Position numbers and translations under genes: made by a program. This document shows positions 6,496 through 23,236 of a DNA stretch of 64,000 nucleotides, in pieces. Every line of letters starts with the position of its first letter. The stretch's first letter is position 1. Source of the stretch: Flavobacterium swingsii (GTDB lineage Bacteria > Bacteroidota > Bacteroidia > Flavobacteriales > Flavobacteriaceae); assembly GCF_900111965.1 (NCBI RefSeq), contig NZ_FOJT01000005.1, forward strand, positions 186,001 through 250,000. Direction: 5' to 3'. The notes under the pieces were generated by a model that saw nothing but the letters and a program-made list of their open reading frames with translations, ran no database searches and was not told where the DNA came from.

Positions 6496-7053
6496 CTAAA
6501 TTCTTAACGACCCGCGAAACCCTCTGGCAGCATAATAAGAATCAGCACCATTATGATACACAAAAACATTTTCGTAGCGAAAATCCGCAAAGATAGCGCC
6601 ACCAAGTTTCCTGATTTCAGGAGGTGTTTCTATCCAGCTCGATGTTTTCGTATCGAAATTTCCAAATTGTTGCAACGCTCGATATTGTTCTTCGGTCAGA
6701 AGTTCAATTTCCATAGCAGTAGCTACATCAATAACATTATTTTCGGGCTTATGTTCTTTCCTTGATTCTAGTGCTTGGCGGTCGTAACAAAAACTTCTGC
6801 GACCTTTAGGACTTTCGGTCGAACAATCATAAAAAATATATTCATCAGTTTTTTTATCAAAACTCACAACATCTGGTTCGCCACCAGTTCTTTCCATTTC
6901 GTTAAGTGACCACATTTTCTGTTTATTAGCTTCCAGTTTTGCTTGCACTTTATTCCATTCAACGTCATTATGGCGATTTTGGTTTTTTTCAAAACGGTCT
7001 TTTAATACTTCAATTAGTGTCAAATGTTGTTCTGCTGATAGCTCTTTTTTCAT
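6496..7053 (-). CDS. DUF4256 domain protein
   Basis: A 185-residue soluble protein matching the DUF4256 family over its whole length: WSLNEMERTGGEPDVV, FYDCSTESPKGRRSFCYDRQ and a C-terminus YHNGADSYYAARGFRGSLRI. The biochemical role of the family is unknown. It is a single minus-strand gene flanked by repeat-bearing DNA on its 3' side and a divergent ATPase gene on its 5' side. Upstream, TATATTTG on the minus strand at 7113-7120 could be its -7 box. Confidence 0.88.
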   Translation of the reverse strand: MKKELSAEQHLTLIEVLKDRFEKNQNRHNDVEWNKVQAKLEANKQKMWSLNEMERTGGEPDVVSFDKKTDEYIFYDCSTESPKGRRSFCYDRQALESRKEHKPENNVIDVATAMEIELLTEEQYRALQQFGNFDTKTSSWIETPPEIRKLGGAIFADFRYENVFVYHNGADSYYAARGFRGSLRI

Positions 7054-7219
7054 GATGCGTTATTATAATTAGCGTCCAAATATCTTAAGCTTAACTTGTT
7101 TTATTACTAATTCAAATATACAAAAAGCAATTTTAATTTTGTTTCCCTTGTTATGATTCCTTATATTTTGTGATTAATTATTTTCAATAAAAAACTTTTC
7201 AAATCCCAATAACTTTAAG

Positions 7220-7227
7220 TACTTTTG
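7220..7227 (+). promoter_or_regulatory. -7 box that decides the start of the NadR-like gene
   Basis: TACTTTTG fits TAnnTTTG. It covers the TTG at 7225, so that TTG cannot be the translation start if this box is used; initiation at GTG 7246 leaves a leader of about a dozen bases. Confidence 0.5.
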
Positions 7228-7245
7228 CCCCTTATTTCTAAAAAA

Positions 7246-7779
7246 GTGCAAAAAGAAATCGTTGTAATCATAGGCGGACCAGGAACTGGCAAAACCACAA
7301 TCATAGATGGTTTGCTGGCAAAGGGTTATTGCTGTTATCCCGAAATTTCGCGTGAAGTTATTCTTGAAGCAAAAAAAGAAGGAATCGAGCAATTGTTTCT
7401 AGAAAATCCTTTGCTTTTTAGCGAATTATTACTTGAAGGAAGAAAAAAACAATTTGTAAACGCACAAAACGAACCTCACGATGTTGTCTTTCTTGACCGA
7501 GGAATTCCAGATGTTTTGGCTTATATGCATTATATAGGCGATAGTTATCCTGCTTTTTTTGACACTGCTTGTCGCAACAATACTTATACTAAAATATTTA
7601 TTTTACCGCCTTGGGAAGATATTTATATTGCTGATAATGAACGTTATGAGAATTACGAACAAGCAAAACTTATTTACAATCACCTTGTAGAAACCTACGA
7701 AAAATACGGTTATAATCTTATTGAAGTTCCAAAAGATAGTGTAGATAATAGAATTCTTTTTATCTTAGAGCAAATTTAG
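7246..7779 (+). CDS. NadR/Ttd14-like AAA ATPase (P-loop nucleotide kinase fold)
   Basis: About 177 residues. A P-loop GGPGTGKTT lies a few residues from the start, followed by YPEISREVI and VVFLDRGIPDVLAY, the pattern of the AAA_28 family (NadR kinase domain and Ttd14-like proteins). It lacks the NadR adenylyltransferase and helix-turn-helix domains, so a role in NAD synthesis cannot be assumed. The ORF is open from TTG 7225, but that lies in a promoter-like box, so GTG 7246 is chosen. It precedes recQ by 75 bases. Confidence 0.82.
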   Translation: MQKEIVVIIGGPGTGKTTIIDGLLAKGYCCYPEISREVILEAKKEGIEQLFLENPLLFSELLLEGRKKQFVNAQNEPHDVVFLDRGIPDVLAYMHYIGDSYPAFFDTACRNNTYTKIFILPPWEDIYIADNERYENYEQAKLIYNHLVETYEKYGYNLIEVPKDSVDNRILFILEQI

Positions 7780-7854
7780 ATTTTAATAAATCTAAATTCC
7801 AAACTCTAACCCGAGCCTGAAAGAGCGAACTGGCGAAGCAAATCTAAACTTTAA

Positions 7855-9747
7855 ATGCAAAGAGCATTACAAATTCTTCAAAAATATTGGCATCATGATA
7901 CTTTTCGACCAATTCAGGATACAATAATCCAATCGGTTCTTGAAGGAAATGATACTTTCGGACTTCTGCCAACTGGCGGAGGAAAATCGTTGTGTTTTCA
8001 AGTTCCAGCAATGGTTAACGATGGTTTGTGTTTGGTAATTTCGCCTTTGGTTGCCTTAATGAAAGACCAAGTAAACAATTTACAATCTCGTGACATAAAA
8101 GCCATTGCGTTAACAGGTGCTATAAAGGCTGATGAGTTAATAAATTTACTAGACAATTGTCAGTTTGGTAATTACAAATTTCTGTATTTATCTCCTGAAA
8201 GATTAGAACAAGATTGGGTTCTTGACAGAATAAAGGCTTTGCCAATTTCACTTATTGCTATCGACGAAGCGCATTGTGTATCGCAATGGGGACATGATTT
8301 TAGACCTTCTTATTTAAAGATTAAAAATCTAAAATCTAATTTTCCTAAAATTCCGTTTGTGGCACTTACGGCATCGGCAACACCACAAGTTAAGGACGAT
8401 ATTATTGCATTATTAGGATTAGAAAATCCAAAAGTTTTCCAACAATCGTTTGCCCGAAATAATTTGGGCTATTTTATTATTCCTGCCGAAGACAAAATAT
8501 ACAAACTGAATCAGATTTTACAAAAAAATCCAGAATCGGCTATTATATATGTACGAAACAGGAAAAATTGCCACGAATATGCTTCTCATTTAGAAGTTTT
8601 AGGTCATAAAACCACTTTTTACCACGCAGGTTTATCTGTAAAAGAGAAAGAAAATAATATGAATTCTTGGATGCGTGACGAGAAAACGGTCATGATTGCC
8701 ACGAGTGCTTTCGGAATGGGAATAGACAAACCCAATGTAAAAACGGTTATACACATTAATTTACCTGAAAATCTAGAAAGTTACTACCAAGAAGCTGGAA
8801 GAGCTGGACGAAACGGAGAAAAAGCTTTTGCTATTTTAATAAGTTCTCCTTCGGATATTATTATGGCCGAAAGCCAGTTTATAGCTGTTTTGCCTGATAC
8901 TATTTTCCTAAAAGATGTTTTTATAAAACTATGTAATTATTTTCGAATCGCTTACGGAGAGGGAATTAACGAAGAATTTTCATTCAATTTGAATCAATTT
9001 TGTAGTTATTATAAGTTACCAATTCTAAAAACGTATAACGCACTTCAGTTTCTGAACAGGCAAAGTATTATTTCGCTTTCGCAAGAATTTTCAGAGAAAG
9101 CACAAGTTCAGTTTTTAATAGAATCTAAAGAGGTAATCAGATATTCTAGTTTAAATCCTGACGATGAACCTATTGTTTCGACAATTTTAAGAACTTATCC
9201 GGGAATTTATGATTTGCAAACGAATATCAATACCGATTTTATTGCAAAAAAATCGAATTCAACCGAGGCGAAAGTATTAATTTTGCTAGAGAAGTTGCAA
9301 AAAATGGAAATTATCGATTATTTTTCACAAAAGAACGAATCGAAAATAACATTTCTCGAAGTTCGTGAAGATGACAGAACCATCAATAGAATTTCGAAGC
9401 ATTTAGAAAAACAAAATTTAGTCAAGAAAAATCAATTGCAATCGGTTGTAAACTATGTTTCTAACAAAGATACTTGCAAGAGCAAAATGCTTTTACAATA
9501 TTTTGGAGAAACGATTGCTAATGATTGTGGCGTTTGTTCCTATTGTTCAAATAAAAATACAAAGTCATATAATTCTGAAGAAATTAGAAATAAGATCGTT
9601 CAATTATTGACTGAAAATCCAATGAATTCGAGAGCATTAATCGAAACATTACATATAGAAGAATCTGAAATATTAAAAGTGTTGAAGCAATTGTTGGAAC
9701 ACGACATGATTGGCATCAATACAAAAAATCAATATATAATAAAATGA
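7855..9747 (+). CDS. recQ: ATP-dependent DNA helicase RecQ
   Basis: A 630-residue superfamily 2 helicase that unwinds DNA 3' to 5' in recombination repair. Walker A TGGGKS at residues 40-45, DEAH at 137-140 within IDEAHCVSQWG, motif V/VI in GMGIDKPNV and QEAGRAGRNG, then an RQC zinc module with CGVCSYC and a winged helix at the C-terminus. A canonical HRDC domain is not apparent. The protein is slightly shorter than E. coli RecQ plus HRDC but complete for helicase and RQC. fmt follows after 82 bases in the same direction. Confidence 0.93.
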   Translation: MQRALQILQKYWHHDTFRPIQDTIIQSVLEGNDTFGLLPTGGGKSLCFQVPAMVNDGLCLVISPLVALMKDQVNNLQSRDIKAIALTGAIKADELINLLDNCQFGNYKFLYLSPERLEQDWVLDRIKALPISLIAIDEAHCVSQWGHDFRPSYLKIKNLKSNFPKIPFVALTASATPQVKDDIIALLGLENPKVFQQSFARNNLGYFIIPAEDKIYKLNQILQKNPESAIIYVRNRKNCHEYASHLEVLGHKTTFYHAGLSVKEKENNMNSWMRDEKTVMIATSAFGMGIDKPNVKTVIHINLPENLESYYQEAGRAGRNGEKAFAILISSPSDIIMAESQFIAVLPDTIFLKDVFIKLCNYFRIAYGEGINEEFSFNLNQFCSYYKLPILKTYNALQFLNRQSIISLSQEFSEKAQVQFLIESKEVIRYSSLNPDDEPIVSTILRTYPGIYDLQTNINTDFIAKKSNSTEAKVLILLEKLQKMEIIDYFSQKNESKITFLEVREDDRTINRISKHLEKQNLVKKNQLQSVVNYVSNKDTCKSKMLLQYFGETIANDCGVCSYCSNKNTKSYNSEEIRNKIVQLLTENPMNSRALIETLHIEESEILKVLKQLLEHDMIGINTKNQYIIK

Positions 9748-9829
9748 AACGCCCACGACAATTATTATGGAAACGAAAGAATTATGGTAGGCGTTCCATC
9801 TTCCAATAAAAAAAAACAGAAAAATACAG

Positions 9830-10780
9830 ATGAAAGCATTACGAATCGTTTTTATGGGAACACCAGAATTTGCAGTAGGAATTCTCGACGCCATTGTAAA
9901 ACAAAATCAACACGAAATAGTAGGTGTAATCACTGCTGCCGACAAACCAGCAGGAAGAGGGCAGAAGATAAAATATTCGGCAGTTAAAGAATATGCTTTA
10001 GAAAACAAGCTGACTTTATTGCAACCAACGAATTTAAAAGACGAAGCTTTTTTAGAAGAATTAAAATCATTAAACGCAAATCTTCATATAGTTGTTGCTT
10101 TTAGAATGTTGCCAAAAGTAGTTTGGGCGATGCCAGAATTAGGAACATTTAATTTACATGCTTCACTTTTGCCAAATTACCGTGGTGCAGCGCCTATAAA
10201 TTGGGCTATTATAAATGGTGAAACAAAAACAGGAGTTACCACTTTTTTTATAGATGATAAGATAGATACTGGCGCTATGATTTTGAGTAAGGAATTAGAA
10301 ATTTCCGAATCTGAAAACGTTGGCGAATTGCATGATAAATTGATGGTTTTGGGTTGCGATGCAGTTCTAGAAACTTTAGATAAAATTGCTGAAGGAAATG
10401 TAAAAACTACAATTCAGGAGGATACTTCAGATATAAAAACTGCCTATAAACTAGATCGTGATAATTGCAAAATAGATTTCACGAAAAACGTAACAGAAGT
10501 TTATAATCTAATTCGTGGTTTGAGTCCGTATCCTTCGGCTTGGTGTAATTTTAAAGACGGAGAACACGAATTTAGCATCAAAATATACGATACAAAACAA
10601 GAAGTCCTGTTGCACGATTATGCAATAGGAAGTGTGATTACGACCAAAAAAGAAATGAAAATCGCAGTTCTTGGCGGTTTTATACATGTTTTATCGCTTC
10701 AATTCCCCGGAAAAAAGAAAATGTTGGCTCATGAATTACTAAATGGAGTTACGTTTTCGGAGTTAGCAATGGTATTTTAG
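9830..10780 (+). CDS. fmt: Methionyl-tRNA formyltransferase
   Basis: A 316-residue enzyme that formylates initiator Met-tRNA with 10-formyl-THF. The N-terminus RIVFMGTPEFAV is the Rossmann start; FNLHASLLPNYRGAAPINWAI carries the catalytic Asn-His-Asp region and the SLLP motif; a C-terminal OB-like domain begins near residue 205. Normal length. The gene follows recQ and precedes the HU gene, which has its own promoter. Confidence 0.96.
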   Translation: MKALRIVFMGTPEFAVGILDAIVKQNQHEIVGVITAADKPAGRGQKIKYSAVKEYALENKLTLLQPTNLKDEAFLEELKSLNANLHIVVAFRMLPKVVWAMPELGTFNLHASLLPNYRGAAPINWAIINGETKTGVTTFFIDDKIDTGAMILSKELEISESENVGELHDKLMVLGCDAVLETLDKIAEGNVKTTIQEDTSDIKTAYKLDRDNCKIDFTKNVTEVYNLIRGLSPYPSAWCNFKDGEHEFSIKIYDTKQEVLLHDYAIGSVITTKKEMKIAVLGGFIHVLSLQFPGKKKMLAHELLNGVTFSELAMVF

Positions 10781-10851
10781 GTTTGTAAAGAGCTATTTGT
10801 CAACAAAAAAGCAAAGTTATTAACAAAATAAACAAAAAAACAGCTTAACTG

Positions 10852-10881
10852 TTGTGAGAATAGGAAATCCTATTAAATTTG
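10852..10881 (+). promoter_or_regulatory. Promoter of the HU gene
   Basis: TTG at 10852-10854, 19 bases, then TAAATTTG at 10874-10881: a near-perfect Bacteroidota -33/-7 promoter, 46 bases before the HU ATG. The flanking GGAAATCC is a short palindrome between the two boxes. Confidence 0.7.
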
Positions 10882-10927
10882 TATGTATAAGTTATAAATT
10901 ATTAACCAATCAATTAATACAATTATT

Positions 10928-11203
10928 ATGAACAAATCAGATTTAATCGATGCAATGTCAGCTTCTGCTGGAATTACAAAAGCTGCTGCTAAATTAGCTT
11001 TAGAATCATTCTTAGGTAATGTTGAAGGAACTTTGCAAAAAGGTGGAAGAGTTTCTCTAGTTGGATTTGGATCTTGGTCAGTATCTAACAGAGCTGCAAG
11101 AGACGGAAGAAACCCACAAACAGGGAAAACTATTAAAATTGCTGCTAAAAACGTAGTGAAATTTAAAGCAGGTGCTGAATTAGAAGGATCAGTAAATAAA
11201 TAA
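10928..11203 (+). CDS. HU-family DNA-binding protein
   Basis: A 91-residue histone-like protein: MNKSDLIDAMSASAGITKAA with the helical dimerisation body, the GFGSWSV turn and the arm RNPQTGKTIKIAAKNVVKFKAG with the DNA-intercalating proline. It probably forms homodimers that bend and compact the nucleoid. It has its own strong promoter and a strong terminator, so it is a monocistronic, abundant transcript. Codons are regular and the gene is complete. Confidence 0.96.
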   Translation: MNKSDLIDAMSASAGITKAAAKLALESFLGNVEGTLQKGGRVSLVGFGSWSVSNRAARDGRNPQTGKTIKIAAKNVVKFKAGAELEGSVNK

Positions 11204-11222
11204 TATTTTATTACCGAATATT

Positions 11223-11250
11223 AAAGCCACGCATTGCGTGGCTTTTTTTA
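11223..11250 (+). terminator. Rho-independent terminator after the HU gene
   Basis: AAAGCCACGC (11223-11232), loop ATT, GCGTGGCTTT (11236-11245) and a T-run: a perfect 10-bp stem 20 bases after the HU stop. Confidence 0.9.
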
Positions 11251-11318
11251 TGTTTTTTAACGATTATATTTGGTTTATAAACATATTTTTTGTTAAATTT
11301 AAATAAAAATCTAACATT

Positions 11319-11879
11319 ATGATAGCTGTAAAACCAAAAAAAGGAAATTTGTTAGTAGCAGAGCCTGCTATAACAGGGGATTTATCTTTCAATAGATCTG
11401 TAGTTTTATTGGCAGATCATAATGAAGAGGGTTCGGTCGGATTTATTTTAAACAAACCTCTAGGTTACACCATCAGAGATTTAATTCCTGAAATATCGGC
11501 GACATTCAAAGTGTATAACGGAGGACCTATCGAGCAAGACAACTTATATTTTATACACAACATACCACAATTAATACCAAATAGCATCGAAATTGCCGAA
11601 GGCATTTATTGGGGAGGTTGTTTCGATTCGACTCGGGATTTAATAAACCAAGGAAAAATTACCAGAAATAATATTCGTTTTTTTCTGGGGTATTCTGGTT
11701 GGGATGCAGAACAATTACAAGAGGAATTAGAATCTAATTCTTGGATTATTTCTGAAAACGAACTTCATAACAAGATTATAGGGAAATCATCGACCGATTT
11801 TTGGCGTGAAAAAATAATGGAACAAGGTGGTGACTACTTAATATGGTCTAATGCACCCGAAAACCCTATGTTTAATTAA
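11319..11879 (+). CDS. YqgE/AlgH family protein
   Basis: A 186-residue protein with the family N-terminus KKGNLLVAEPAITGDLSFNR and VGFILNKPLG, then GGPIEQDNLYFIH and GYSGWDAEQLQEEL. The family (UPF0301) is widespread, with a solved fold but no secure function; the AlgH name comes from alginate regulation in Pseudomonas and should not be carried over. Full length. Its 3' end overlaps the convergent aminotransferase gene by 4 bases. Confidence 0.92.
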   Translation: MIAVKPKKGNLLVAEPAITGDLSFNRSVVLLADHNEEGSVGFILNKPLGYTIRDLIPEISATFKVYNGGPIEQDNLYFIHNIPQLIPNSIEIAEGIYWGGCFDSTRDLINQGKITRNNIRFFLGYSGWDAEQLQEELESNSWIISENELHNKIIGKSSTDFWREKIMEQGGDYLIWSNAPENPMFN

Positions 11880-12670
11880 TCCAATCTAATTTTTGTATTT
11901 AATTTTATAAGAAGTTGGTTGACAATATTCGATTGAAATTCTTTTTTTCGATATTTTGTTATTGGCTGAATTCCTGTAATAACATTGGTTATAAACAATT
12001 CATCTGCTTTTTGCAAATCGAAAGGGGAAATTACAGCTTCTATTACTTCAATATTTTCGAGTGTTTTTGCTAAAGCCAAAATTTGTTTTCGCATGATTCC
12101 GTTCAAGCAACCTTCAGATATGGGTGGCGTAGATAAAACACCATCTTTTAGCATAAAAATATTTCCGTTTAATGCTTCAATCACATTTTTAGCTTCATTA
12201 ATTAAAATACAATTGTCTAAGCCATTTTCGTTTGCATAAATACTTCCTGTAATGTTTATTAATTTATTGGTCGTTTTTAGTGTAGAAATGAGCTGTTTCG
12301 AGATATAAAAATCTTTGTATAAATCGACTTCATAATTAGATTTTTGAATTGTATATAACGGTTTTTCAATTTTTGAAACCGCAATCTCATAAGCTACATT
12401 ATTATTTTCGGGTAAATAATAACCGCCATCTTTTCTGTAAACAGTAATTCTAGCTCTTGCTGATGCTTCGATATTTTCTGTTTTCGCTTTCGATAGTAAT
12501 TCGTTTTCAAAGAATTCCATAGTAAAATTCATAGGAATTTCCATTCTTAGAATTCGCATCGAAGACATTAACCGGAAATAATGGTCTTCTAAAAATAGAA
12601 TTTTGTTGTCTAAAATTTTGACAGTTTCAAAAACTGCATCACCATATAAAAAAGCACGATTATTTTGCAT
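11876..12670 (-). CDS. Aminotransferase class IV (IlvE/PabC fold), N-terminally short
   Basis: A 264-residue PLP enzyme. The fold-type IV signature is clear: NRAFLYGDAVFETVKIL, the Lys region STLKTTNKLINI (probable Schiff-base Lys in LKTTNK), NGNIFMLKDGVLSTPPISEGCLNGIMR and a C-terminal ELFITNVITGIQPI. It is a branched-chain aminotransferase or 4-amino-4-deoxychorismate lyase type enzyme; substrate undecided. It starts at MQNNRAF, some 15 residues later than usual relatives, which begin with an extra strand (INGxxxx). An in-frame stop 13 codons upstream rules out a longer start. Its promoter overlaps the terminator of the upstream gene. Confidence 0.85.
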   Translation of the reverse strand: MQNNRAFLYGDAVFETVKILDNKILFLEDHYFRLMSSMRILRMEIPMNFTMEFFENELLSKAKTENIEASARARITVYRKDGGYYLPENNNVAYEIAVSKIEKPLYTIQKSNYEVDLYKDFYISKQLISTLKTTNKLINITGSIYANENGLDNCILINEAKNVIEALNGNIFMLKDGVLSTPPISEGCLNGIMRKQILALAKTLENIEVIEAVISPFDLQKADELFITNVITGIQPITKYRKKEFQSNIVNQLLIKLNTKIRLD

Positions 12671-12703
12671 AAAAAAAGCCCTGAAAAATTCAGGGCAAAT
12701 ATA
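12671..12703 (-). promoter_or_regulatory. Overlapping terminator and promoter between START-like and aminotransferase genes
   Basis: On the minus strand, TATATTTG (12703-12696) is a -7 box whose last base begins the hairpin GCCCTGAA / TTCAGGGC (12696-12689 and 12685-12678, 3-base loop), followed by seven T and directly the ATG at 12670. The hairpin with its T-run would terminate the START-like transcript, while the box would start aminotransferase mRNA inside the hairpin with a leader of about 20 bases. Confidence 0.6.
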
Positions 12704-12723
12704 AGTTTAATATTTTTTAGAAA

Positions 12724-13116
12724 CTATACAGATCCTATAACATGTTTTAAATCTGAAACCTGATTTTCCCATAATAGTTTCGATTCTTCAACATCATCTG
12801 CCTCAGCATAATCGACTACCATAAGAGAAACATCTTTAGTGATTTCGTCGACAAGAATTCTTAATTCAAAATAATATTCAGTGTCTTTATTATCGTCGTC
12901 CATCCATTTGAACTTGATTTTTTCGCCTGTTTTTTTAGAATATAATCTTGCTTTTTCTTCGGAATCATTCCAAATAAAAGTGTAAAATTCGCCACGAGAG
13001 TTTACATTATCTGCAAACCATTCTTGTAGCCCTGAAGGAGTTGAAATATATTGATATAATAACTGTGGAGATGAGTTTATGGGGAATTCTAATTCGTATC
13101 GTATTTTGCTTTCCAT
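12724..13116 (-). CDS. START-like domain protein
   Basis: A 130-residue protein of the START/SRPBCC (AHSA1-like) superfamily: KIRYELEFPINSSPQLLYQY, GLQEWFADNV, then a run of beta strands and a long C-terminal helix DDVEESKLLWENQVSDLKHV. This cytoplasmic version is common in Bacteroidota; its ligand is unknown. The preceding intergenic carries the tRNA-Met promoter on the other strand. Confidence 0.85.
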   Translation of the reverse strand: MESKIRYELEFPINSSPQLLYQYISTPSGLQEWFADNVNSRGEFYTFIWNDSEEKARLYSKKTGEKIKFKWMDDDNKDTEYYFELRILVDEITKDVSLMVVDYAEADDVEESKLLWENQVSDLKHVIGSV

Positions 13117-13198
13117 TGTTTGTAATTTTGGTGTAATATATATAATTATGGTTTGAAAAAAAAATTATTTTAATAATAATATTTTTCTTAAAAAATAT

Positions 13199-13228
13199 TT
13201 GCACTCTTTAAATATAGTGTTATATTTG
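13199..13228 (+). promoter_or_regulatory. Promoter of tRNA-Met
   Basis: TTG at 13199-13201, 19 bases, TATATTTG at 13221-13228. This is a full match to the Bacteroidota housekeeping promoter and lies 34 bases before the tRNA 5' end. Confidence 0.75.
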
Positions 13229-13262
13229 CACCCGCATTGAGAGATGTAAACCGAAACAAAAT

Positions 13263-13336
13263 GGCGAGATAGCTCAGTCGGTTAGAGCGCAGGATTCATA
13301 ACCCTGAGGTCACGGGTTCAACTCCCGTTTTCGCTA
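13263..13336 (+). tRNA. tRNA-Met (anticodon CAT)
   Basis: A 74-base cloverleaf: acceptor GGCGAGA / TTTCGCT with a G-T pair at 1-72, D arm with AGCTCAG and GGTTAGAGC, anticodon CAT at 13297-13299 within AGGATTCATAACCCT, and T arm ACGGG TTCAACT CCCGT. CCA is not encoded (CAA follows). The imperfect 1-72 pair resembles an initiator feature, but the anticodon stem lacks the three G-C pairs of initiators, so it is probably elongator Met. Confidence 0.93.
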
Positions 13337-13339
13337 CAA

Positions 13340-13376
13340 AAAAAAAGTTCAAAACTGTGTTTTGGACTTTTTTTAT
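13340..13376 (+). terminator. Terminator after tRNA-Met
   Basis: AGTTCAAAAC (13346-13355), loop TGT, GTTTTGGACT (13359-13368) with one G-T pair, then a T-run. It separates the tRNA from the LytTR gene 45 bases further on. Confidence 0.85.
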
Positions 13377-13420
13377 ATAATTATCTGAACATTAAATTTT
13401 TTAATTTAGAACTCCTCTTA

Positions 13421-14179
13421 ATGTTAATACCAAAAGTCGGTTTACTAGACGATAACAAGGAACAATTACTCATAAATCAGAATATTTTAGAATCTACTGG
13501 TTTAGCAACTATCGTTTCTGCTTGTACAAAAGCGGAGGTTTTCCTGAAAGATGTAGTAAATACACAGCCAGAAATTTTATTTCTTGACCTTAATCTTGGA
13601 GATTCCTATATGACGGGTATGGAAGTGGCTTTTAAACTCAAGTTACCAGTTTTGTTTGTAAGTAGCAACTCGGCAGAATATATAAAAGACATTGAAAAGT
13701 TAAAAAGAGATTATGATTTGTGTGTTGATCACATTACGAAACCTTTTACTGAAGAAGAGTTTATAAAAACAACCAAACGGTTTTTAAAAGAAGTAGCTTT
13801 TTTTAAGAAAGAAAATTTTATTTATTTAGATTTCAAGTCCTCAAAAAGAAATAAAATCGCAATAGATAGTATTGTTTATTTTTCTGCGGATAAAGCAAAT
13901 GGTTCGGACTCAAATAACAAGCAAATTCACTTTACCAATAGAAAATCGGAAACCCTAATTGATTTCTCGTTTTCTAAAATGGAAGAAAAAGGACTTTTGA
14001 AATCAAATTTCATTACCATTCACAAATCATTTCGTGTAAACTCAAATCACATTAAAGCCTACCATAAAAAAACGGAATCAATTGAAGTTGAAGTTTTTAC
14101 CGAACAAGGTAAATTAGAATCCAAAAACCTTCAAGTTTCAGAGAATTACCAATATTTGGTAAAACAAATAAAAAAATAA
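13421..14179 (+). CDS. Orphan response regulator, REC plus LytTR DNA-binding domain
   Basis: A 252-residue protein. Receiver domain, residues 1-125: acidic pair D10-D11, phospho-acceptor D56 in ILFLDLNLG, Ser in LFVSSNS, Lys in HITKPF; all canonical. LytTR domain, about residues 135-250: FIYLDFKSSKRNKIAIDSIVYF and ITIHKSFRVNSNHIKAY. LytTR proteins bind pairs of direct repeats about 21 bp apart as dimers and act on transcription; such repeats lie directly downstream of this gene before the ATPase gene. No histidine kinase gene is adjacent, so its signal is unknown. No good promoter is seen for it. Confidence 0.92.
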   Translation: MLIPKVGLLDDNKEQLLINQNILESTGLATIVSACTKAEVFLKDVVNTQPEILFLDLNLGDSYMTGMEVAFKLKLPVLFVSSNSAEYIKDIEKLKRDYDLCVDHITKPFTEEEFIKTTKRFLKEVAFFKKENFIYLDFKSSKRNKIAIDSIVYFSADKANGSDSNNKQIHFTNRKSETLIDFSFSKMEEKGLLKSNFITIHKSFRVNSNHIKAYHKKTESIEVEVFTEQGKLESKNLQVSENYQYLVKQIKK

Positions 14180-14186
14180 ACCGCTC

Positions 14187-14215
14187 TTGTTACTTTTTTA
14201 AAGCCTTTTGTTACT
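14187..14215 (+). promoter_or_regulatory. Putative LytTR operator: two direct repeats 21 bp apart
   Basis: TTGTTACT occurs at 14187-14194 and exactly again at 14208-14215, a 21-bp period (two helical turns). This is the spacing used by LytTR activators such as AgrA and ComE, and the GTTA core resembles the general LytTR half-site. The second copy lies 26 bases before the -7 box of the ATPase gene, where an activator would replace the missing -33 element. Binding is an inference. Confidence 0.6.
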
Positions 14216-14241
14216 AACAATAAGGTAATATTATCCTACAT

Positions 14242-14249
14242 TATTTTTG
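14242..14249 (+). promoter_or_regulatory. -7 box of the AAA ATPase gene
   Basis: TATTTTTG fits TAnnTTTG and gives a leader of about 40 bases to the ATG at 14297. No TTG is found 16-20 bases upstream, consistent with an activator-dependent promoter. Confidence 0.5.
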
Positions 14250-14296
14250 CTCTAACTTTCTATTGAGATTTACTGTATCAAAATCTAAAAACAAAA

Positions 14297-15367
14297 ATGA
14301 TACAAGCTAAATCAACCAAAAACAATCGTCAAAACAATACTACTTTTGGCAAAACTTCTTTAGAAGATTACATTATCGAATTGATTAAAAATAACATTGT
14401 TGTTATCGAAAAAGACGTCGAAAAAAAAATCTATGCAGATATTAAAGAAAGACTAAAAATCGATTTTGTTCAACAAGAAAACAATTTCAAAAACAGCAAC
14501 CAATTAGTTAATGATAAATTAATTGCTTTAAATAGACGTATTGGAAGTGCCGAAGGAAATCTTAAAGCAGAATTAAAGAAACTTAAAGAAGAAATTGATG
14601 CAAAGAAGAATAAAAAGACGATTGATATTGTTGTAAAAAAAGGAAACAAATCTATTGATTTAGGTACACAACATATTCAATTTGAAAATTTATTGAAATA
14701 CGTGCAAGCCAAAGTCAATGTATATTTAGTAGGTTCAGCGGGTTCAGGGAAAACAACGGCGGCAAAAAATATTGCCAAAGCTTTAGATATTCCTTTTTAT
14801 TTCACAGGAGCTATTGCAAGCGAATTCAAACTAACAGGATTTATTAATGCACAAGGAAATATTGTTTCTACAGAATTTAGAAAAGCGTATGAAAGTGGTG
14901 GATTGTTTTTGTTTGATGAAATAGATGCGAGTTATCCGCAAGCTATTTTAGCTTTTAATGCAGCTTTAGCTAATGATTTTATGGATTTTCCAGATAAAAA
15001 AATAGAGCGTCATAAAGATTTTTATTGCATTGCTGCGGCAAATACTTATGGTTCAGGTGCGGATAGAGAATATATTGGAAGAAACCAGTTAGATGCAGCA
15101 TCTTTAGACCGTTTTGTGTTTTTTGATTGGAACATCGATGAAGATTTAGAAAGAGAATTAGCTAATAACGATGACTGGGTAAACTATGTTCAGAAAGTAA
15201 GAAAATCAGCAAAGAAATTAGGAATACGTTTTGTTATTAGCCCAAGAGCTTCATTTTATGGAGCAACTTTATTAGAAGTTGGAATAGATAGAAAAGAAGT
15301 AGAGAAAAATGTGTTGTGGAAAGGATTAGACTTGGCAACAGTACAACAAATAAAAAATAATTTGTAA
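14297..15367 (+). CDS. MoxR/CobS-like AAA+ ATPase with N-terminal coiled coil
   Basis: A 356-residue protein. Residues 1-110 are charged and helical (coiled coil about 60-105). The AAA+ module (AAA_5/dynein-related type) follows: Walker A GSAGSGKT at 146-153, Walker B LFLFDEID at 203-210, sensor 1 Asn in AAANT near 249, arginine finger candidate R272 in SLDRF and sensor 2 Arg in SPRAS near 317. This is the clade of MoxR, CbbQ, CobS and GvpN, which usually work with a VWA-domain partner encoded next door. The downstream gene begins one base after the stop and has a VWA-like segment. No metal-chelatase or gas-vesicle gene is near. Confidence 0.88.
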   Translation: MIQAKSTKNNRQNNTTFGKTSLEDYIIELIKNNIVVIEKDVEKKIYADIKERLKIDFVQQENNFKNSNQLVNDKLIALNRRIGSAEGNLKAELKKLKEEIDAKKNKKTIDIVVKKGNKSIDLGTQHIQFENLLKYVQAKVNVYLVGSAGSGKTTAAKNIAKALDIPFYFTGAIASEFKLTGFINAQGNIVSTEFRKAYESGGLFLFDEIDASYPQAILAFNAALANDFMDFPDKKIERHKDFYCIAAANTYGSGADREYIGRNQLDAASLDRFVFFDWNIDEDLERELANNDDWVNYVQKVRKSAKKLGIRFVISPRASFYGATLLEVGIDRKEVEKNVLWKGLDLATVQQIKNNL

Positions 15368-15368
15368 A

Positions 15369-16187
15369 ATGAACAAACATTTAATATTCGAAGACTTGCA
15401 CGAATTCTGGGAGTTTTCTTTTAGAGAAAGCAAAGCAAATAATAGAGGGTCAAGGGACTCTCCTAATTACTGGAGTGGTGGTCTAGATTGGAATGAATCC
15501 AAAAGATTAGCATTAATGGGTTGGCAAAAAGGATTAGTTGAAATAGATAAATTTCAAGCTAAAGTAAATGAGTTAATTACTAGCAAAATAGTAAGGCATA
15601 AACCTATCTATGCAGTAGCAGGGAATTATATTGATATTGGAAATTATCTTTCAAATGATCCAGAATGTTTCGTTGCAAAAGAGTACGATGAGAACAATCA
15701 AAAAGGTAAAATAATTACAATAGTATGTTCAATTTCATTTTCAGCTGCCATAAGCCCAGAAACAATAATCCAAAGAGGAGCTATGGTTTGCGCATTAATT
15801 GACGCTATTGAATATGCTGGATATAGAGCAGAGGTAATTTGCAATGAAACAAGTTCAAAATTCGCTTCAAATCGTGACGGAAACAATAAAGAAAGAGGTT
15901 GGTTTGAAATAGATGTTGTCATTAAAAAGGCAAACCAACCATTAAATAGAATTGAATTAGCATTTTGTCTAGCACATCCAGCAATGTTAAGAAGAGTAAT
16001 GTTTTCCGTTGCAGAAATTGAAGGATGGTCAGATTTCACATATGGCTATGGGTGTCCATCTAAAGCAACTAATAAAGGAGATATTTACATTGAAGAAGTT
16101 TTTAGCGGGGTTGTTTCTGATGATAAAGCAATACATTGGATAGTAACAGAATTACAAAAATTAGGTATTACAATAGAACAAGATTAA
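15369..16187 (+). CDS. Uncharacterised partner of the AAA+ ATPase, with VWA-like segment
   Basis: A 272-residue protein with no confidently recognised family (it recalls phage and actinobacterial proteins labelled DUF7192; not checked). Residues 34-52, YWSGGLDWNESKRLALMGW, look like a conserved N-terminal motif. Residues 114-160 read like the first half of a VWA fold: strand ITIVC, then SISFS where a MIDAS DxSxS would stand (Asp replaced by Ser121), a helix RGAMVCALIDAIEYAG and strand YRAEVIC. This parallels CobT, the VWA partner of CobS. Start is one base after the ATPase stop: translational coupling. It has no signal peptide and probably acts in the cytoplasm with the ATPase. Confidence 0.7.
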   Translation: MNKHLIFEDLHEFWEFSFRESKANNRGSRDSPNYWSGGLDWNESKRLALMGWQKGLVEIDKFQAKVNELITSKIVRHKPIYAVAGNYIDIGNYLSNDPECFVAKEYDENNQKGKIITIVCSISFSAAISPETIIQRGAMVCALIDAIEYAGYRAEVICNETSSKFASNRDGNNKERGWFEIDVVIKKANQPLNRIELAFCLAHPAMLRRVMFSVAEIEGWSDFTYGYGCPSKATNKGDIYIEEVFSGVVSDDKAIHWIVTELQKLGITIEQD

Positions 16188-16248
16188 AAAATAAAATGCG
16201 GTAGCTGAAAAGCAAAAAGAGTAGGTGAAAAATAATAAATCAAACAAA

Positions 16249-16356
16249 ATGAGTAATCCAAAACCAGCACAAAAACCGAATCCACAATGGCCAAGCAAAA
16301 CAGGAAATCCTTCAGGAGGGAGTAGAGGAAACAATCCGCCAAAGCCAAAGAAGTAA
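16249..16356 (+). CDS. Small proline-rich peptide (35 residues)
   Basis: An ATG at 16249 opens 35 codons: nine Pro, many Asn, Gly and Lys and one Trp (NPQWPSKTGNPSGG). It has no hydrophobic segment and is probably disordered. It lies 61 bases after the ATPase partner gene and before the shared terminator, so it could be the last gene of the module. I have an impression of similar PNPxWPSxTGNPSGG peptides in other Bacteroidota, which supports a real gene, but this is unverified. Two similar 11-base words (GTAGCTGAAAA / GTAGGTGAAAA, 20 bases apart) sit upstream at 16201-16231. Confidence 0.5.
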   Translation: MSNPKPAQKPNPQWPSKTGNPSGGSRGNNPPKPKK

Positions 16357-16443
16357 AAAAAACGTTATAAAATAGATATGTTGTATTTCAAAAACACTCC
16401 TTAGCTAACGCTTCAAAAAAAATGAAACCTAAATTATTAAAAA

Positions 16444-16474
16444 ATGCCACTCAAAATTTGAATGGCATTTTTTA
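16444..16474. terminator. Bidirectional terminator between the module and rny
   Basis: ATGCCA-C-TCAAA facing TTTGA-A-TGGCAT (16444-16468) with one C-A mismatch, A-run on the left and T-run on the right. It can end both the plus-strand module and minus-strand rny. Confidence 0.75.
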
Positions 16475-16493
16475 ATTTTATCTAAAAAAATAT

Positions 16494-18056
16494 TTACTTA
16501 GCAATATTTACCGCTCTAGTTTCTCTAATAACGGTAACTTTTACCTGACCTGGATAAGTCATTTCTGTTTGAATTTTTTGTGAGATTTCAAATGATAAAT
16601 TAGCGGCATTATCGTCGCTTACTTTTTCGCTTTCTACAATAACACGTAGTTCACGACCCGCTTGGATAGCATAAGCACTTTTTACACCAGTAAACCCATA
16701 AGCAACTTCTTCTAAGTCTTTTAGACGTTGTATGTATGAATCTAAAACTTGACGACGGGCGCCTGGTCTTGCGCCAGAAATAGCATCACAAACCTGAACG
16801 ATTGGAGATAGTAAAGATTTCATTTCTATCTCATCGTGATGTGCTCCAATAGCGTTGCAAACTTCTTCTTTTTCTCCGTACTTCTCGGCCCATTGCATTC
16901 CTAAAAGGGCGTGTGGTAAATCGCTTTCTGTGTCTGGAACTTTCCCAATGTCATGAAGTAATCCAGCTCTTTTAGCCAGTTTTACATTCAATCCTAATTC
17001 AGCTGCCATGATTCCACAAAGTTTAGAAACTTCGCGTGAGTGTTGTAATAAATTTTGCCCGTAAGAAGAACGATATTTCATACGTCCTACTACTTTTATC
17101 AATTCTGGATGCAAACCGTGAATTCCTAAATCGATTACTGTACGTTTTCCTACTTCGATAATCTCATCATCAATTTGTTTTGTGGTTTTTGCCACAACTT
17201 CTTCGATACGAGCTGGGTGAATACGACCGTCAGTTACTAATTTATGTAATGCCAAACGGGCAATTTCTCTACGAACTGGGTCAAAACAAGAAAGGATAAT
17301 GGCTTCAGGCGTGTCATCTACAATGATTTCGACACCAGTCGCTGCTTCAATAGCGCGAATGTTACGACCTTCACGACCAATAATTCTACCTTTTACATCA
17401 TCAGATTCGATGTTAAAGACTGAAACGCAATTTTCTACTGCTTCTTCAGTTCCTACACGTTGTATGGTGTTGATGATTATTTTTTTGGCTTCTTGTTGCG
17501 CTGTAAGTTTGGCTTCTTCAATAGTTTCTTGAATGTGAGCCATAGCTTGCGTTTTTGCTTCGCCTTTTAAACCTTCAATTAATTGATTTTTTGCTTCTTC
17601 AGTAGATAAACCAGAAATTACTTCCAGTTGTTGCAACTGACTTTTGTGCATTTTTTCTACTTCAACTTGCTTTTTTTCAAGTATTTCGATTTTTGAATTG
17701 TATTCGTTAGTTTTTGCTTCAAAATCGTCGTTTATTTTCTTTGCTTTCGACAATTCTCCAGAAATTTGAGATTCTTTATCACGAACTCTTTTTTCTACTT
17801 CGGCAACTTTACGATCACGAGTTAAGATAACTTGCTCGTGTTCAGATTTTAGTTCGATAAATTTTTCTTTAGCTTGAAGAATTTTATCTTTTTTTATGTT
17901 TTCTCCTTCAAGATTTGCGTCTTTTAAAATAGAAGAAGCTTCTTTTTTAGCGTTTTTTACTAAGTTAGAAACGTTCTTTTTTTCTATAAATTTTGAGATT
18001 CCGAATCCACCGCCTATTCCAGCAATTGCTGAAATTATTATTGTTAAAATGTCCAT
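16494..18056 (-). CDS. rny: Ribonuclease Y
   Basis: A 520-residue membrane-anchored endoribonuclease that starts mRNA decay. Residues about 3-22 are a transmembrane helix ([16 protein letters not shown]); a long coiled coil runs to about 190; a KH domain carries [15 protein letters not shown]; the HD domain has HSREVSKL and LLHDIGK near residue 363. The length is normal for the family. Gene order on the minus strand is coiled-coil gene, zapA, 6S-like RNA, rny; the T-run after the 6S-like hairpin may limit read-through into rny. Confidence 0.95.
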
Positions 18057-18076
18057 ATTTGTTTAAGTTTATATAT

Positions 18077-18238
18077 AAAAAAACCTACATCAGAAGGTAT
18101 TGCATAAACTCGGAATGACAAGTTTTGAGCTAACTCGTTGTTCAAGCTTCCAAACTAAATTGGCTTGCTATAGTTACGATGATTTGCTCATTTTAATTTG
18201 TTAGTGTTGAGTTTATCAAATAGGTACTAATGTAGGTA
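18077..18238 (-). ncRNA. ssrS: Probable 6S RNA
   Basis: The two ends of this gap fold on each other: CCTACAT (18084-18090) pairs with ATGTAGG (18230-18236), and ATAAACTC near 18103-18111 pairs with GAGTTTAT near 18209-18217, with TATT/AATA pairing between. This gives an interrupted rod of about 28 bp with a large central bubble, the shape of 6S RNA, which mimics an open promoter and binds RNA polymerase. On the minus strand the rod is followed by seven T. zapA is immediately upstream, the classical 6S neighbour. About 160 nt, within the 6S range. No ORF competes. Confidence 0.7.
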
Positions 18239-18264
18239 GTATTTTAGTGTATGTTAAGAACGTA

Positions 18265-18558
18265 TTATTTATCTAGATATTCGCCTAATAATTCATTTAA
18301 TTTTCCAAGTTTTAGCATAGTAGTTTCCTCTATTGTCGACTTGTCAATTTGTTTTTGTTCTACTTGAGAAGCAAATTGTAAGGCACACATGGCCAAAACG
18401 TCTTGTTTGTCCCGTACTTCATAATTTTGTTCGAACTGCTTTATCATAGCATCAATCTTTTTAGAAGCACTTCTTAGCCCTTCTTCCTGACTTATATCTA
18501 CCGTTAGTGGGTAAACTCTGTCTGCAATCGATATTTTTATTTTTAGTTTTTCACTCAT
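18265..18558 (-). CDS. zapA: Cell division protein ZapA
   Basis: A 97-residue ZapA: an N-terminal beta-strand head (LKIKISIADRVYPLTVD, EEGLRSASKKIDAMI) and a C-terminal coiled coil with DVLAMCALQFASQVEQ. ZapA crosslinks FtsZ filaments at the septum. It lies 8 bases downstream of a coiled-coil gene and immediately upstream of the 6S-like RNA. Normal size. Confidence 0.92.
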   Translation of the reverse strand: MSEKLKIKISIADRVYPLTVDISQEEGLRSASKKIDAMIKQFEQNYEVRDKQDVLAMCALQFASQVEQKQIDKSTIEETTMLKLGKLNELLGEYLDK

Positions 18559-18566
18559 TATGCTTT

Positions 18567-18857
18567 CTAATCAGAAAGTTGCGCAATACAATAATCTATT
18601 TCTCTAATTAATGAATTTATTTTAAGCTTTGTATCTCTTTTGTATTCGTCACTACCAAGTAATGAATTTGTAATTTTTATCGAGTCAAAATTAGCTTTTA
18701 TAGCTTTAATTTCTTGGTTTTGATTTGAAATAAATCGCTCAGATTCTTCCAGTTTCATTGACAAAATTCGATTTACCTCTTGCAAATCTTCCATTCTTTT
18801 TAAAAACTTTTGAAACCTAATTTCAAGAGAATCAACAATTTCTCCAATCTCACTCAT
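18567..18857 (-). CDS. Coiled-coil protein upstream of zapA (possible ZapA partner)
   Basis: A 96-residue protein that is almost entirely helical: EIVDSLEIRFQKFLKRMEDL, then EVNRILSMKLEESERFISNQ with heptad leucines, and a C-terminal RDTKLKINSLIREIDYCIAQL. Small coiled-coil proteins (ZapB in enterics, ZauP in Caulobacter) pair with ZapA at the division site; position and fold suggest the same here, but there is no close sequence similarity I can point to. It heads the transcript with a good promoter. No membrane segment. Confidence 0.8.
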   Translation of the reverse strand: MSEIGEIVDSLEIRFQKFLKRMEDLQEVNRILSMKLEESERFISNQNQEIKAIKANFDSIKITNSLLGSDEYKRDTKLKINSLIREIDYCIAQLSD

Positions 18858-18885
18858 TGCAATAAAAATTCATTACATAACTTCA

Positions 18886-18916
18886 CAAAGTTACTATTCC
18901 TAATCAATTATCGCAA
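18886..18916 (-). promoter_or_regulatory. Promoter for the coiled-coil gene, zapA and 6S-like RNA
   Basis: On the minus strand TTG (18916-18914), 20 bases, TAACTTTG (18893-18886), 29 bases before the start codon at 18857. Confidence 0.6.
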
Positions 18917-19044
18917 TAACTTTTATAAAAAAAATAATATTTCTTAGTTTTAATTTATAAATCCTTTATAATGTTAGTGTTATCAATATGTTTAAGCACA
19001 ATTTTTATAAAACTATTTTGTTATATTAGCACAAATGTTTTTTT

Positions 19045-20736
19045 ATGAGAATTCTTATTGTTTTTTTATTTGTTTTTAATGTTGTTTTTGCTCAAGATAA
19101 ATATCCAAAAGATTATTTCAGATCACCTTTAGATATCCCTATAGCCATTGCTGGTTCTTTTGGAGAATTAAGACCCAATCATTTTCATTCTGGAATCGAT
19201 TTTAGAACCCAAAAAAAAGAAGGTTTCCCAATTTATGCTACTGCTGATGGTTTTATTTCTCGTATTAAAATTTCTACTGGAGGTTACGGAAAATCAATAT
19301 ATATAGACCATCCCAACGGATATACTACGGTTTATGGTCATTTACAAAAAACTGCGCCTAGAATTCAAAATATCTTGAATGCCGAACATTATTCGAAAGA
19401 AAGCTATGAAATAGAAATTTTCCTCAAACCAAATGAAATTTCTGTCAAGAAAGGAGATTTAATAGGATATTCGGGAAATACAGGAAGTTCTGGGGGACCA
19501 CATTTACATTTTGAAATTAGAGATACAAAAACCGAATATATAATAAATCCTTTGTTTTTTGGCTATGATTCCAGTTTTATTGATACAAAAGCACCACAAA
19601 TTTCAGAGCTTTTGGTTTATCCGTTATCTGATGCATCTCAGGTGAATGGTTCTCCGAATCCAATAGTCATTAGTCTTTCTTTACAAAAAGACGGCACTCA
19701 TTTAGCTAGTAAAATTATTGCAAGAGGCAAAATAGGATTTGGGATAAATGCCTACGATATTTCAGAAAATAATTATGGAAAAAATGGAATTTACAAACTA
19801 AATGCTTGTCTAAACGGAATGCCTTACTATAGTTATGAGTTCGATTCTTTTTCGTTTGATGAAACAAAACATATTAATGATTTTATAGATTACCCGAGAT
19901 ATAAATCTCAAAATCAGCGTTTTCAGAAACTTTTTGTAGGTTATCTGTATTCAAATAATATTGTGAAGAGTACTAAAAATAATGGAATCGTAGACGTTTC
20001 TTCAAATTTTACTATGAACTACAAAATCGTTTTACAAGATTTTCATGGAAATGAAACCATTATAAATATCCCTATTTCTTATGAATATTTGCCATCGATA
20101 TTTGCCAGTAAAGCTATAGAAACGCCTTATTTCCTTAAAGCACGTAATGAGAATAGTTATGCAAAAGATGGAGTTTCAGTGTTTATTCCAGAAAACACTT
20201 TTTATGAAGATTTTTATTTAAAATTTGATGTAAAAAATAATGAACTTTTCCTTCACGATAATTTTGTTGCGGTAAATGAGTATATGACAATCACTTTCGA
20301 TGCTACAAAAATTCCTGTTATTGAAAGAGAAAAAATGTTTATTGCTAATTTAAATGGCACGAGAACAGAATACAATATGACATCAAAAAACGATAGTTTA
20401 TTTACTATTAAAACAAAAAAGCTAGGAAAATTCTTTTTAGCTAAAGATACAATTGCACCACTTATTTACAAACCAAATTTTACTGATGGCTCAAATTTAG
20501 ACAAACAGCAAACATTAAAAATTTCAATTTCTGATGATTTGTCAGGAATTGCATCATACAATGCCTATCTAAACGGAAAATGGATTCTTATGGAATACGA
20601 AAATAAATTAAATAGACTCACACATAGTTTATCGGATAATCTATATATAAATGGAAATAATAAATTTAAAATTATTGTGAAAGATAATTTGGGAAATTCT
20701 ACTACTTTTGAATCCAATTTTAATAAAACAAAATAA
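19045..20736 (+). CDS. M23 family metallopeptidase
   Basis: A 563-residue exported protein. Signal peptide to about residue 17 (VVFAQDKYP). The LytM/M23 domain lies at about 25-185: NHFHSGIDFRT provides the first zinc ligands and HLHFEI the last. Such enzymes cut peptidoglycan stem peptides or crosslinks. The remaining 370 residues are beta-rich, with an Ig-like repeat around DDLSGIASYNAYLNGKWIL, as in flavobacterial relatives. The gene is 6 bases upstream of the TonB receptor gene and probably cotranscribed with it. Confidence 0.92.
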   Translation: MRILIVFLFVFNVVFAQDKYPKDYFRSPLDIPIAIAGSFGELRPNHFHSGIDFRTQKKEGFPIYATADGFISRIKISTGGYGKSIYIDHPNGYTTVYGHLQKTAPRIQNILNAEHYSKESYEIEIFLKPNEISVKKGDLIGYSGNTGSSGGPHLHFEIRDTKTEYIINPLFFGYDSSFIDTKAPQISELLVYPLSDASQVNGSPNPIVISLSLQKDGTHLASKIIARGKIGFGINAYDISENNYGKNGIYKLNACLNGMPYYSYEFDSFSFDETKHINDFIDYPRYKSQNQRFQKLFVGYLYSNNIVKSTKNNGIVDVSSNFTMNYKIVLQDFHGNETIINIPISYEYLPSIFASKAIETPYFLKARNENSYAKDGVSVFIPENTFYEDFYLKFDVKNNELFLHDNFVAVNEYMTITFDATKIPVIEREKMFIANLNGTRTEYNMTSKNDSLFTIKTKKLGKFFLAKDTIAPLIYKPNFTDGSNLDKQQTLKISISDDLSGIASYNAYLNGKWILMEYENKLNRLTHSLSDNLYINGNNKFKIIVKDNLGNSTTFESNFNKTK

Positions 20737-20742
20737 ATAATT

Positions 20743-23220: not shown

Positions 23221-23236
23221 ATATAAATTTTTAAAC

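Follow-up and report, generated by a model that had tools for sequence, protein, structure and literature searches.

A rare islet of Flavobacterium swingsii joins a virus-type AAA+ ATPase and DUF7192 gene pair to a LytTR regulator

An islet of about 3 kb on contig NZ_FOJT01000005.1 of Flavobacterium swingsii (assembly GCF_900111965.1) appears to be a rare accessory module, in which a remodelling pair of viral type, a MoxR-clade AAA+ ATPase and a DUF7192 protein, stands beside its own transcription regulator of the LytTR type; it is probably a movable device in the conflict between phages and bacteria. The islet lies in a window of 64,000 nucleotides (positions 186,001 to 250,000 of the contig, forward strand), which is the whole stretch analysed and belongs to contig C6 of a 2.57-Mb genome with the handle G000; further G and L handles denote genomes and loci. 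Rightward from a tRNA-Met gene come the LytTR regulator, a gap of 117 bases, the ATPase, the DUF7192 protein, a peptide of 35 amino acids, a hairpin and, on the opposite strand, rny (Table 1). The original prediction, made from the letters of the window, had described four genes on one strand between the tRNA and a hairpin before rny, and the open reading frames (ORFs), ARAGORN and the hairpin search confirm all of these. On balance we favour reading the islet as a mobile accessory module with the virus-type pair at its core, switched by the LytTR regulator and likely to act in conflict between a phage or other element and its host. This reading rests on intact catalytic residues, near-constant adjacency of the pair, correlated divergence, purifying selection, a patchy and mobile distribution, and the recurrence of regulator and operator-like repeat in three loci.

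The two genes of the pair are almost constant neighbours. A search with DUF7192 gave 39 IMG/VR contigs; in 38 of them the ATPase gene lies directly upstream, and the remaining contig ends first. This count comprises 36 contigs measured by script and two (L141, L142) in which an antisense frame was picked, although by tblastn the DUF7192 match follows the ATPase immediately. There is some redundancy among the 39, and one of them, L117, comes from a Tenacibaculum genome. In the 36 measured contigs, with start codons assigned by the script, the two genes are at most 152 bases apart or have an overlap of at most 199. In the islet one base separates the ATPase stop from the ATG of the DUF7192 gene, in line with the coupling that had been proposed. 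Clustering at 85% ATPase identity reduces the loci that include the ATPase, 44 from viruses or phages and 13 from bacteria, to 34 clusters (26 and 8), and no third gene is conserved beside the pair, the largest neighbour family occurring in 5 of the 34 non-redundant loci. Distances between ATPase cores correlate with those between DUF7192 proteins (r = 0.90 for 30 pairs, reached in 0 of 2000 permutations), partly because the shared ancestry of the genomes contributes.

Most relatives of the pair that were found are in phages, namely of Staphylococcus (Kayvirus), Listeria (P100), Mycobacterium (Faithunavirus), Tunturiibacter and Rhizobium; the association is not restricted to Bacteroidota. In Kayvirus, P100 and Faithunavirus both families (phrog_249 and phrog_1909) and their order match the islet, with genes overlapping or close together, although DUF7192 identity with the window's protein is only 27-33% in three phages and the Listeria partner matches weakly (6e-9). 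The Rhizobium phage record has two small genes between ATPase and DUF7192. In five phage records the annotations around the pair name no regulator, though most neighbours there are called hypothetical. A tblastn search with DUF7192 gave no match in 72,556 plasmid records.

The ATPase exceeds the curated Pfam cut-offs for AAA (1.3e-9) and AAA_5 (2e-7) and falls into phrog_249 of PHROGs, a family named 'porphyrin biosynthesis' (E 2e-58). All of 30 sequences keep the Walker A lysine K152, the Walker B glutamate E208, sensor-1 N249, the arginine finger R272 and sensor-2 R317, and D207 is kept in 29. The fold of the model matches CbbQ (6l1q; Z 20.4, root-mean-square deviation (rmsd) 2.6, 231 residues aligned) and NorQ (9qh4; Z 19.6, rmsd 2.5, 229 aligned). 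In a profile search against solved structures the best match was Midasin, with several domains summed (2.2e-43), and the best single-domain match was CobS (9.7e-19), followed by CbbQ (2.5e-9) and NorQ (6.2e-7). The earlier assignment to the MoxR/CobS/CbbQ clade is thus upheld by family, residues and fold. At the place of the helix-2 insert, a segment around residues 179-192 has G181, G187 and T192 in 30 of 30 ATPases, and we read it as a putative insert of this kind. An N-terminal coiled coil had also been proposed; residues 22-81 and 89-104 are indeed modelled as long helices, but only at low confidence (predicted local distance difference test (pLDDT) about 50-65).

The partner belongs to DUF7192 (PF23822; 133.3 bits against a curated cut-off of 27, E 1.4e-38), and its PHROGs family, phrog_1909 (1.5e-42), is one of unknown function. 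No Pfam VWA model matched it at curated cut-offs, although the VWA-like segment described earlier is borne out as a predicted fold. An AlphaFold model made with 40 natural sequences has a pLDDT of 83 and a predicted template modelling score (pTM) of 0.80. When it was aligned with structures in the PDB, ranks 1-4, 6 and 10 were chain G of NorQD entries, which is taken to be NorD, judged from residue numbers, and ranks 5 and 7-9 were the metal-ion-dependent adhesion site (MIDAS) part of Midasin/Rea1/MDN1; these top 10 of 50 rows have Z 6.4-8.7 and rmsd 3.4-6.1. Further down, integrins, Ku, complement and von Willebrand factor, proteins that contain VWA-type domains, make up many of the rows. Foldseek alone also placed five NorQD entries first, none at an E-value of 0.001 or better. 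Among the predicted structures of viral proteins in BFVD, 7 of the first 12 matches are named DUF7192 and the other 5 are nameless; these are followed, among further nameless rows, by phage CobT and von Willebrand (VWFA) proteins (E 2.6e-5 to 8.8e-4), those in the first rows being 586-809 residues long.

The MIDAS motif DxSxS is degenerate in the partner. In our own alignment of 40 sequences, the first position of the equivalent segment (residues 121-125) is N in 16, S in 11, D in 6 and another residue in 7, and the last position is S in 24. The loop preceding the first VWA strand, by contrast, contains a constant segment with G85 and P98 in 40 of 40 sequences. In NorD, a finger of the VWA part enters the NorQ pore according to the accessible part of PMC13036017, and the DUF7192 loop, which is modelled at low confidence, may correspond to this finger, judging from the order along the chain. 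With resemblance scores that are moderate, DUF7192 can be described as a putative short VWA-fold adaptor with a degenerate MIDAS. A literature search found no paper naming DUF7192, and none combining MoxR, VWA, phage and CobS.

Several known systems resemble the islet in part. With NorQ-NorD and CbbQ-CbbO it has in common the ATPase fold (Z 19-20), the VWA fold of the partner (Z 6.4-8.7) and the helix-2-insert-like segment. It differs in that the partner consists only of the VWA-like part and a short N-terminal region, without a conserved MIDAS or a sequence match to NorD, and in that no client gene, such as those for cNOR or Rubisco, is found among the islet ORFs, as had been noted from the start. 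Phages and archaeal viruses likewise have CobS-CobT or AAA-vWA clusters, and BFVD gave matches to phage CobT/VWFA proteins; the viral CobT/vWA partners are, in the excerpts available of PMC8651126 and PMC7911831, longer and MIDAS-bearing, whereas DUF7192 is short and MIDAS-degenerate. The core of MoxR and vWA is also that of the ternary conflict systems described in the accessible text of PMC7159879, but the islet has no third component (VMAP, iSTAND, FtsH or beta-propeller) and no effector, and only the 35-residue peptide besides.

The name of phrog_249 and the CobS annotations suggest a role in metal insertion of the cobaltochelatase type, in which the pair would act as CobS and CobT. CobS is the best single-domain match among solved structures, viral CobST has been proposed, in the excerpt available of PMC8651126, to borrow the host CobN, and one pair-bearing genome, G700, has CobN. 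However, CobN (PF02514) is absent from 14 of 15 handles, that of the window included (13 of 14 genomes, G701 and G1298 being apparently one), in a search that matched 5 of 14 control genomes, and the partner has 272 residues and a degenerate MIDAS, as opposed to the vWA and MIDAS domains of viral CobT in the same excerpt. Because of the absence of CobN we regard this role as very improbable, and since nearly all of the bacterial carriers tested lack CobN the annotation 'porphyrin biosynthesis' is doubtful for this type.

The regulator combines a receiver and a LytTR DNA-binding domain, both above the Pfam cut-offs (Response_reg 34.5 bits against 30.2; LytTR 27.9 against 22.6), and no kinase gene adjoins it in the ORF list, which agrees with the original prediction on both counts. 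Among 12 handles representing 11 genomes (G601 and G702 give identical places; G926, G748 and G736 were left out), close relatives of the regulator occur only in G698/L009 and G011, at 79% and 65% identity, each just before the ATPase gene. In the eight other pair-bearing Bacteroidota genomes searched no close relative was found, the other matches being 21-34% identical. The regulator that had been envisaged as dedicated to the pair accompanies it in three loci.

The usual target of LytTR regulators is a pair of direct repeats spaced by about two turns of the helix. All three gaps between regulator and ATPase (window, L009, G011) contain, at the same place, the direct repeat TTRTTAYT with a pitch of 21 bp, while much of the remaining gap differs in G011. 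The pattern, which was written after seeing the sequence, occurs once in the 64-kb window, against 0.01 expected. We suggest the repeat as a candidate LytTR operator, and the pair is probably under LytTR control.

All three large genes are under purifying selection (dN, nonsynonymous divergence, 0.06-0.14; dS, synonymous divergence, 0.64-1.59, window against L009). The values for dN and dS are 0.14 and 1.59 for the regulator, 0.06 and 0.64 for the ATPase, and 0.09 and 1.15 for DUF7192, where 208 codons were compared, as L009 ends inside the gene; against G011, dS of 1.9-4.5 is saturated.

DUF7192 is found, counting the window's genome each time, in 2 of 299 genomes of the genus, 3 of 395 of a phylum sample, 6 of 395 of a class sample (4 of the near type) and 10 of 397 of a family sample (2 near, 8 distant with best E 1e-10 to 4e-7); the last three samples overlap and are therefore not to be summed. 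The genus count supports the earlier suggestion of a variable locus. Near relatives occur in Flavobacterium, Tenacibaculum, Mesonia, Winogradskyella, Oceanihabitans, a metagenome-assembled genome of Marinifilaceae and other Bacteroidota, with 86% identity to the window's protein in L009 (Flavobacterium sp.) and 53-63% in the others. G601 and G702 (L013) appear to be one genome, as do G1298 and G701 (L012); the contig of G736 starts at DUF7192, so that no ATPase was seen there.

This distribution bears on the possibility that the pair is a stress-controlled maturation chaperone for an unlinked host complex, a housekeeping role like that of RavA-ViaA or NorQD. The fold match to NorQD would suit such a role, and cues from the envelope or from signals are frequent triggers of LytTR regulators. 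Since only 2 of 299 genomes of the genus have DUF7192, no client gene lies nearby, and distant Bacteroidota have the pair in common at about 60% identity, we consider the chaperone role unlikely.

Most of the near relatives are situated in cassette arrays, islands or regions that resemble phages. Behind the pair in G011 come a MazG-like gene, one for a Schlafen-group-3 helicase with GIY-YIG, and an Mrr restriction gene. G601/L013 has, close to the pair, a TIR gene as well as an ORF of 458 amino acids weakly resembling tyrosine recombinases, and in G309/L087 a CRISPR-type array of 18 repeats (L087: 15150-16571) lies about 1.8 kb away. L015 has a tyrosine-recombinase-like ORF of 405 amino acids (weak match) on one side and an attC-like array on the other, and in L009 a gene for an HTH_17 protein (5.2e-13) precedes the regulator. 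Judged by sequence, the neighbours of the pair in L175 and L011 look phage-like; of three L175 neighbour proteins tested, PHROGs identified almost nothing, and IMG/VR lists the L011 contig as viral. On the far side of the array in L087, a helicase has a GajB-like match (5.8e-11).

Such neighbours invite the interpretation that the pair serves anti-phage defence, with the host keeping a LytTR-induced pair of virus type that disturbs the assembly or takeover complexes of incoming phages. The MazG-like, Schlafen-group-3 and Mrr genes in G011, the TIR gene in G601 and the CRISPR-type array in G309 favour it, as do the patchy, mobile distribution and the place of MoxR-vWA pairs at the core of proposed conflict systems (PMC7159879, from the portion available). 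However, neither protein has an effector domain in Pfam, the window locus itself lies among core genes, and a count of PADLOC models (threshold 1e-8) gives no enrichment, with 10 in 81 neighbour ORFs of nine loci and 53 in 81 core-region ORFs. This comparison is weak, since the control ORFs come from the core genome and models, not proteins, were counted; several control matches, named for example DpdF, read as housekeeping helicases. Of 94 neighbour ORFs, 13 were left out as being at contig edges, short or antisense-looking, and the control consisted of the first 81 of 105. We hold defence in this strict sense to be possible but doubtful.

The cassette-like setting is clearest in L011-L015, where the end of an attC-like element immediately precedes the ATPase gene. 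A model, R1, was built from these preceding elements, and a further element was found behind the pair in L012, L014 and L015 (E <= 5e-7) and more weakly in L011 (0.0025). R1 gave no match at E <= 1 in the islet of the window, so that the islet was rejected as an integron cassette. Large arrays of attC-like repeats, each about 147 nt long (TAACACCG...CGTTAGC), stand between single genes in L011-L015 as well as in G703, G700, G601, G704 and G701. In G703, 144 matches were counted (150 candidates scored); the other four genomes gave 63, 57, 54 and 52, while G000 has 2 and G011 and G697 have 0. The integron integrase TIGR02249 exceeded its cut-off in 0 of 8 genomes; tyrosine recombinases scoring below it occur in all 8 and likewise in all 14 control genomes, and some share contigs with attC-like arrays (G703:C6, G700:C29, G704:C23). 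The arrays look like chromosomal integron arrays in Flavobacteriaceae. In L008 different repeats of about 115-174 nt, which R1 does not match, lie between single genes, the pair forming one such unit (2301-2496, 5950-6060, 6780-6890, 9683-9885, 10327-10521, 11639-11834).

The pair might instead be cargo that serves the replication or assembly of a phage or other element, the islet then being a remnant or a new capture without benefit to the host. That phages hold most relatives found is in its favour, as are the phage-like neighbours in the near-type loci L175 and L011. On the other hand, three genes are under purifying selection, the regulator is retained over three loci, the bacterial DUF7192 proteins are far closer to the window's than those of the three phages, and the near type is in no viral contig except one from Tenacibaculum. 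That contig, IMGVR_UViG_2802429608_000001 (L117/L018; 38751 bases), has the length of a genome contig of Tenacibaculum dicentrarchi, and since attC-like repeats flank its pair the viral label may come from other genes on it. Likewise, repeats on both sides of the pair in L011 mean that it may be a cassette beside a prophage. We therefore give cargo without host benefit a tentative place, with the odds against it.

Returning to the mobile accessory module, its parts fit an ATP-driven remodelling machine of the NorQD type, for which the twisting mechanism of NorQD (PMC13036017), the MoxR-vWA conflict systems (PMC7159879) and the viral AAA/vWA pairs (PMC7911831, PMC8651126) are precedents in the excerpts available of these papers. 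By analogy, the ATPase would form a ring on which DUF7192 would dock as NorD does on NorQ, placing its conserved loop (about residues 81-101) by the pore, while the VWA face would hold the target; hydrolysis of ATP would then twist or unfold this target. The regulator, phosphorylated by an unlinked kinase, would bind the repeat and switch the pair on. The target would most likely be a component of one side in a conflict between phage or mobile element and host. For a viral gene pair carried by bacteria at mobile sites together with its own regulator, such a conflict would be the most economical reading.

A number of points weigh against this interpretation. The putative complex of ATPase and DUF7192 is drawn from analogy, and the loop assigned to the pore is modelled at a pLDDT of 50-65. 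The match of the partner to NorD has only moderate scores (Z below 9, rmsd 5-6), and best Z values of 7-8 are, by the tool's own warning, typical of models without a clear match; a sequence search of DUF7192 against solved structures, VWA and NorD included, gave nothing meaningful. Binding of the repeat by the regulator is predicted only, and its apparent association with the pair comes from a search confined to pair-bearing genomes. In PADLOC the ATPase is weakly IetA-like (2.6e-6) and DUF7192 has no match, so that neither protein is known there as a system, and the PADLOC count shows no excess beside the pair. Finally, L174, a near relative, lies between core-looking genes.

The history of the window locus does not appear to be one of simple insertion. 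In 13 of 15 relatives from the genus, seen in both searches, rny and the block with tRNA-Met lie on one contig about 13-22 kb apart with other genes between, and in 13 of 13 their relative orientation is opposite to that in the window. Plain insertion into a conserved tRNA-rny interval was rejected on this ground. The block 192-13352 of the window (about 0.2-13.35 kb) is inverted relative to rny, as aligned for G001, G010, G011 and G014, and the islet fills the inversion junction (13352-16425). Adjacency to a tRNA had been taken to suggest a variable locus; no second copy of the tRNA 3' end was found in window positions 5001-25000, and the variability coincides with the inversion junction rather than with a detectable integration site.

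Table 1. Features of the islet and its borders (window coordinates)
Feature	Position	Strand	Evidence or remark
tRNA-Met (CAT)	13263..13337	+	ARAGORN; left neighbour, outside the module
LytTR response regulator, 252 aa, receiver and LytTR DNA-binding domains	13421..14179	+	PF00072 2.6e-8, PF04397 2.8e-6
Direct repeat TTGTTACT ... TTGTTACT, 21-bp pitch, candidate LytTR operator	14187..14215	+	Gap between regulator and ATPase
MoxR-clade (CobS/CbbQ/NorQ-like) AAA+ ATPase, 356 aa, helical N-terminus	14297..15367	+	phrog_249 2e-58
DUF7192 protein, predicted VWA-fold partner with degenerate MIDAS, 272 aa	15369..16187	+	PF23822 1.4e-38; phrog_1909 1.5e-42
Basic Pro/Gly/Asn-rich peptide, 35 aa, own small-protein family	16249..16356	+	ATG at 16249; ORF list
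Terminator-like hairpin, 19 pairs, common to islet and rny	16436..16476	-	Hairpin search
rny	18056 to 16494	-	ORF list

The small peptide is confirmed as an ORF, and the motif PS(K/T)TGN..SG.GR..NNPP(K/R) is clearly common to it and its relatives (L181, L183, L189-L194), although its family, first described as part of the module, also occurs away from the pair. Of 198 other genomes from the family, 5 have relatives (E 0.003-0.009). Four of these (G1073, G1087, G1112, G1170) also belong to the 8 that carry the distant type of DUF7192, and in G1087 and G1112 the peptide is about 3 kb from it, which speaks against a mere passenger; a further copy is in L181. A passenger is nevertheless what one would read from G1073 and G1170, where the peptide is on other contigs than DUF7192, and from G1070, which has a peptide relative and no DUF7192 match. 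By tblastn the peptide was not found in L085 (G011) or in L009, which ends inside DUF7192, and G011 has a different small basic ORF of 46 amino acids in its place (L007:2314-2454).

The distant DUF7192-like proteins have settings of their own. L180-L187 represent a recurrent, mobile-looking region of Flavobacteriaceae with such a protein (335-337 amino acids in the four printed) and, in 7 of 8 loci, an ATPase of 315-316 amino acids, which is phrog_249 in the one tested; G1374 holds three copies of a region of this type. L184 and L185 include a protein of 1420 amino acids, and L185 also a weak match to a terminase large subunit. In L177 and L178 an ATPase of 436-439 amino acids is beside the distant gene, with a DNA-methyltransferase-like gene in L177.

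The islet can be seen as a viral machine of wide occurrence in a compact bacterial version, equipped with a candidate operator. A bolder and rather speculative view is that bacteria took over the viral pair, under a LytTR switch, as an inducible anti-phage remodelling machine that would neither cut nucleic acids nor kill the cell, and that circulates in other Flavobacteriaceae as an integron-like cassette. DUF7192, so far mostly phage-borne and without a function, would gain a structural meaning as a short VWA adaptor, and this may suggest why phage 'CobS' genes have a DUF7192 neighbour.

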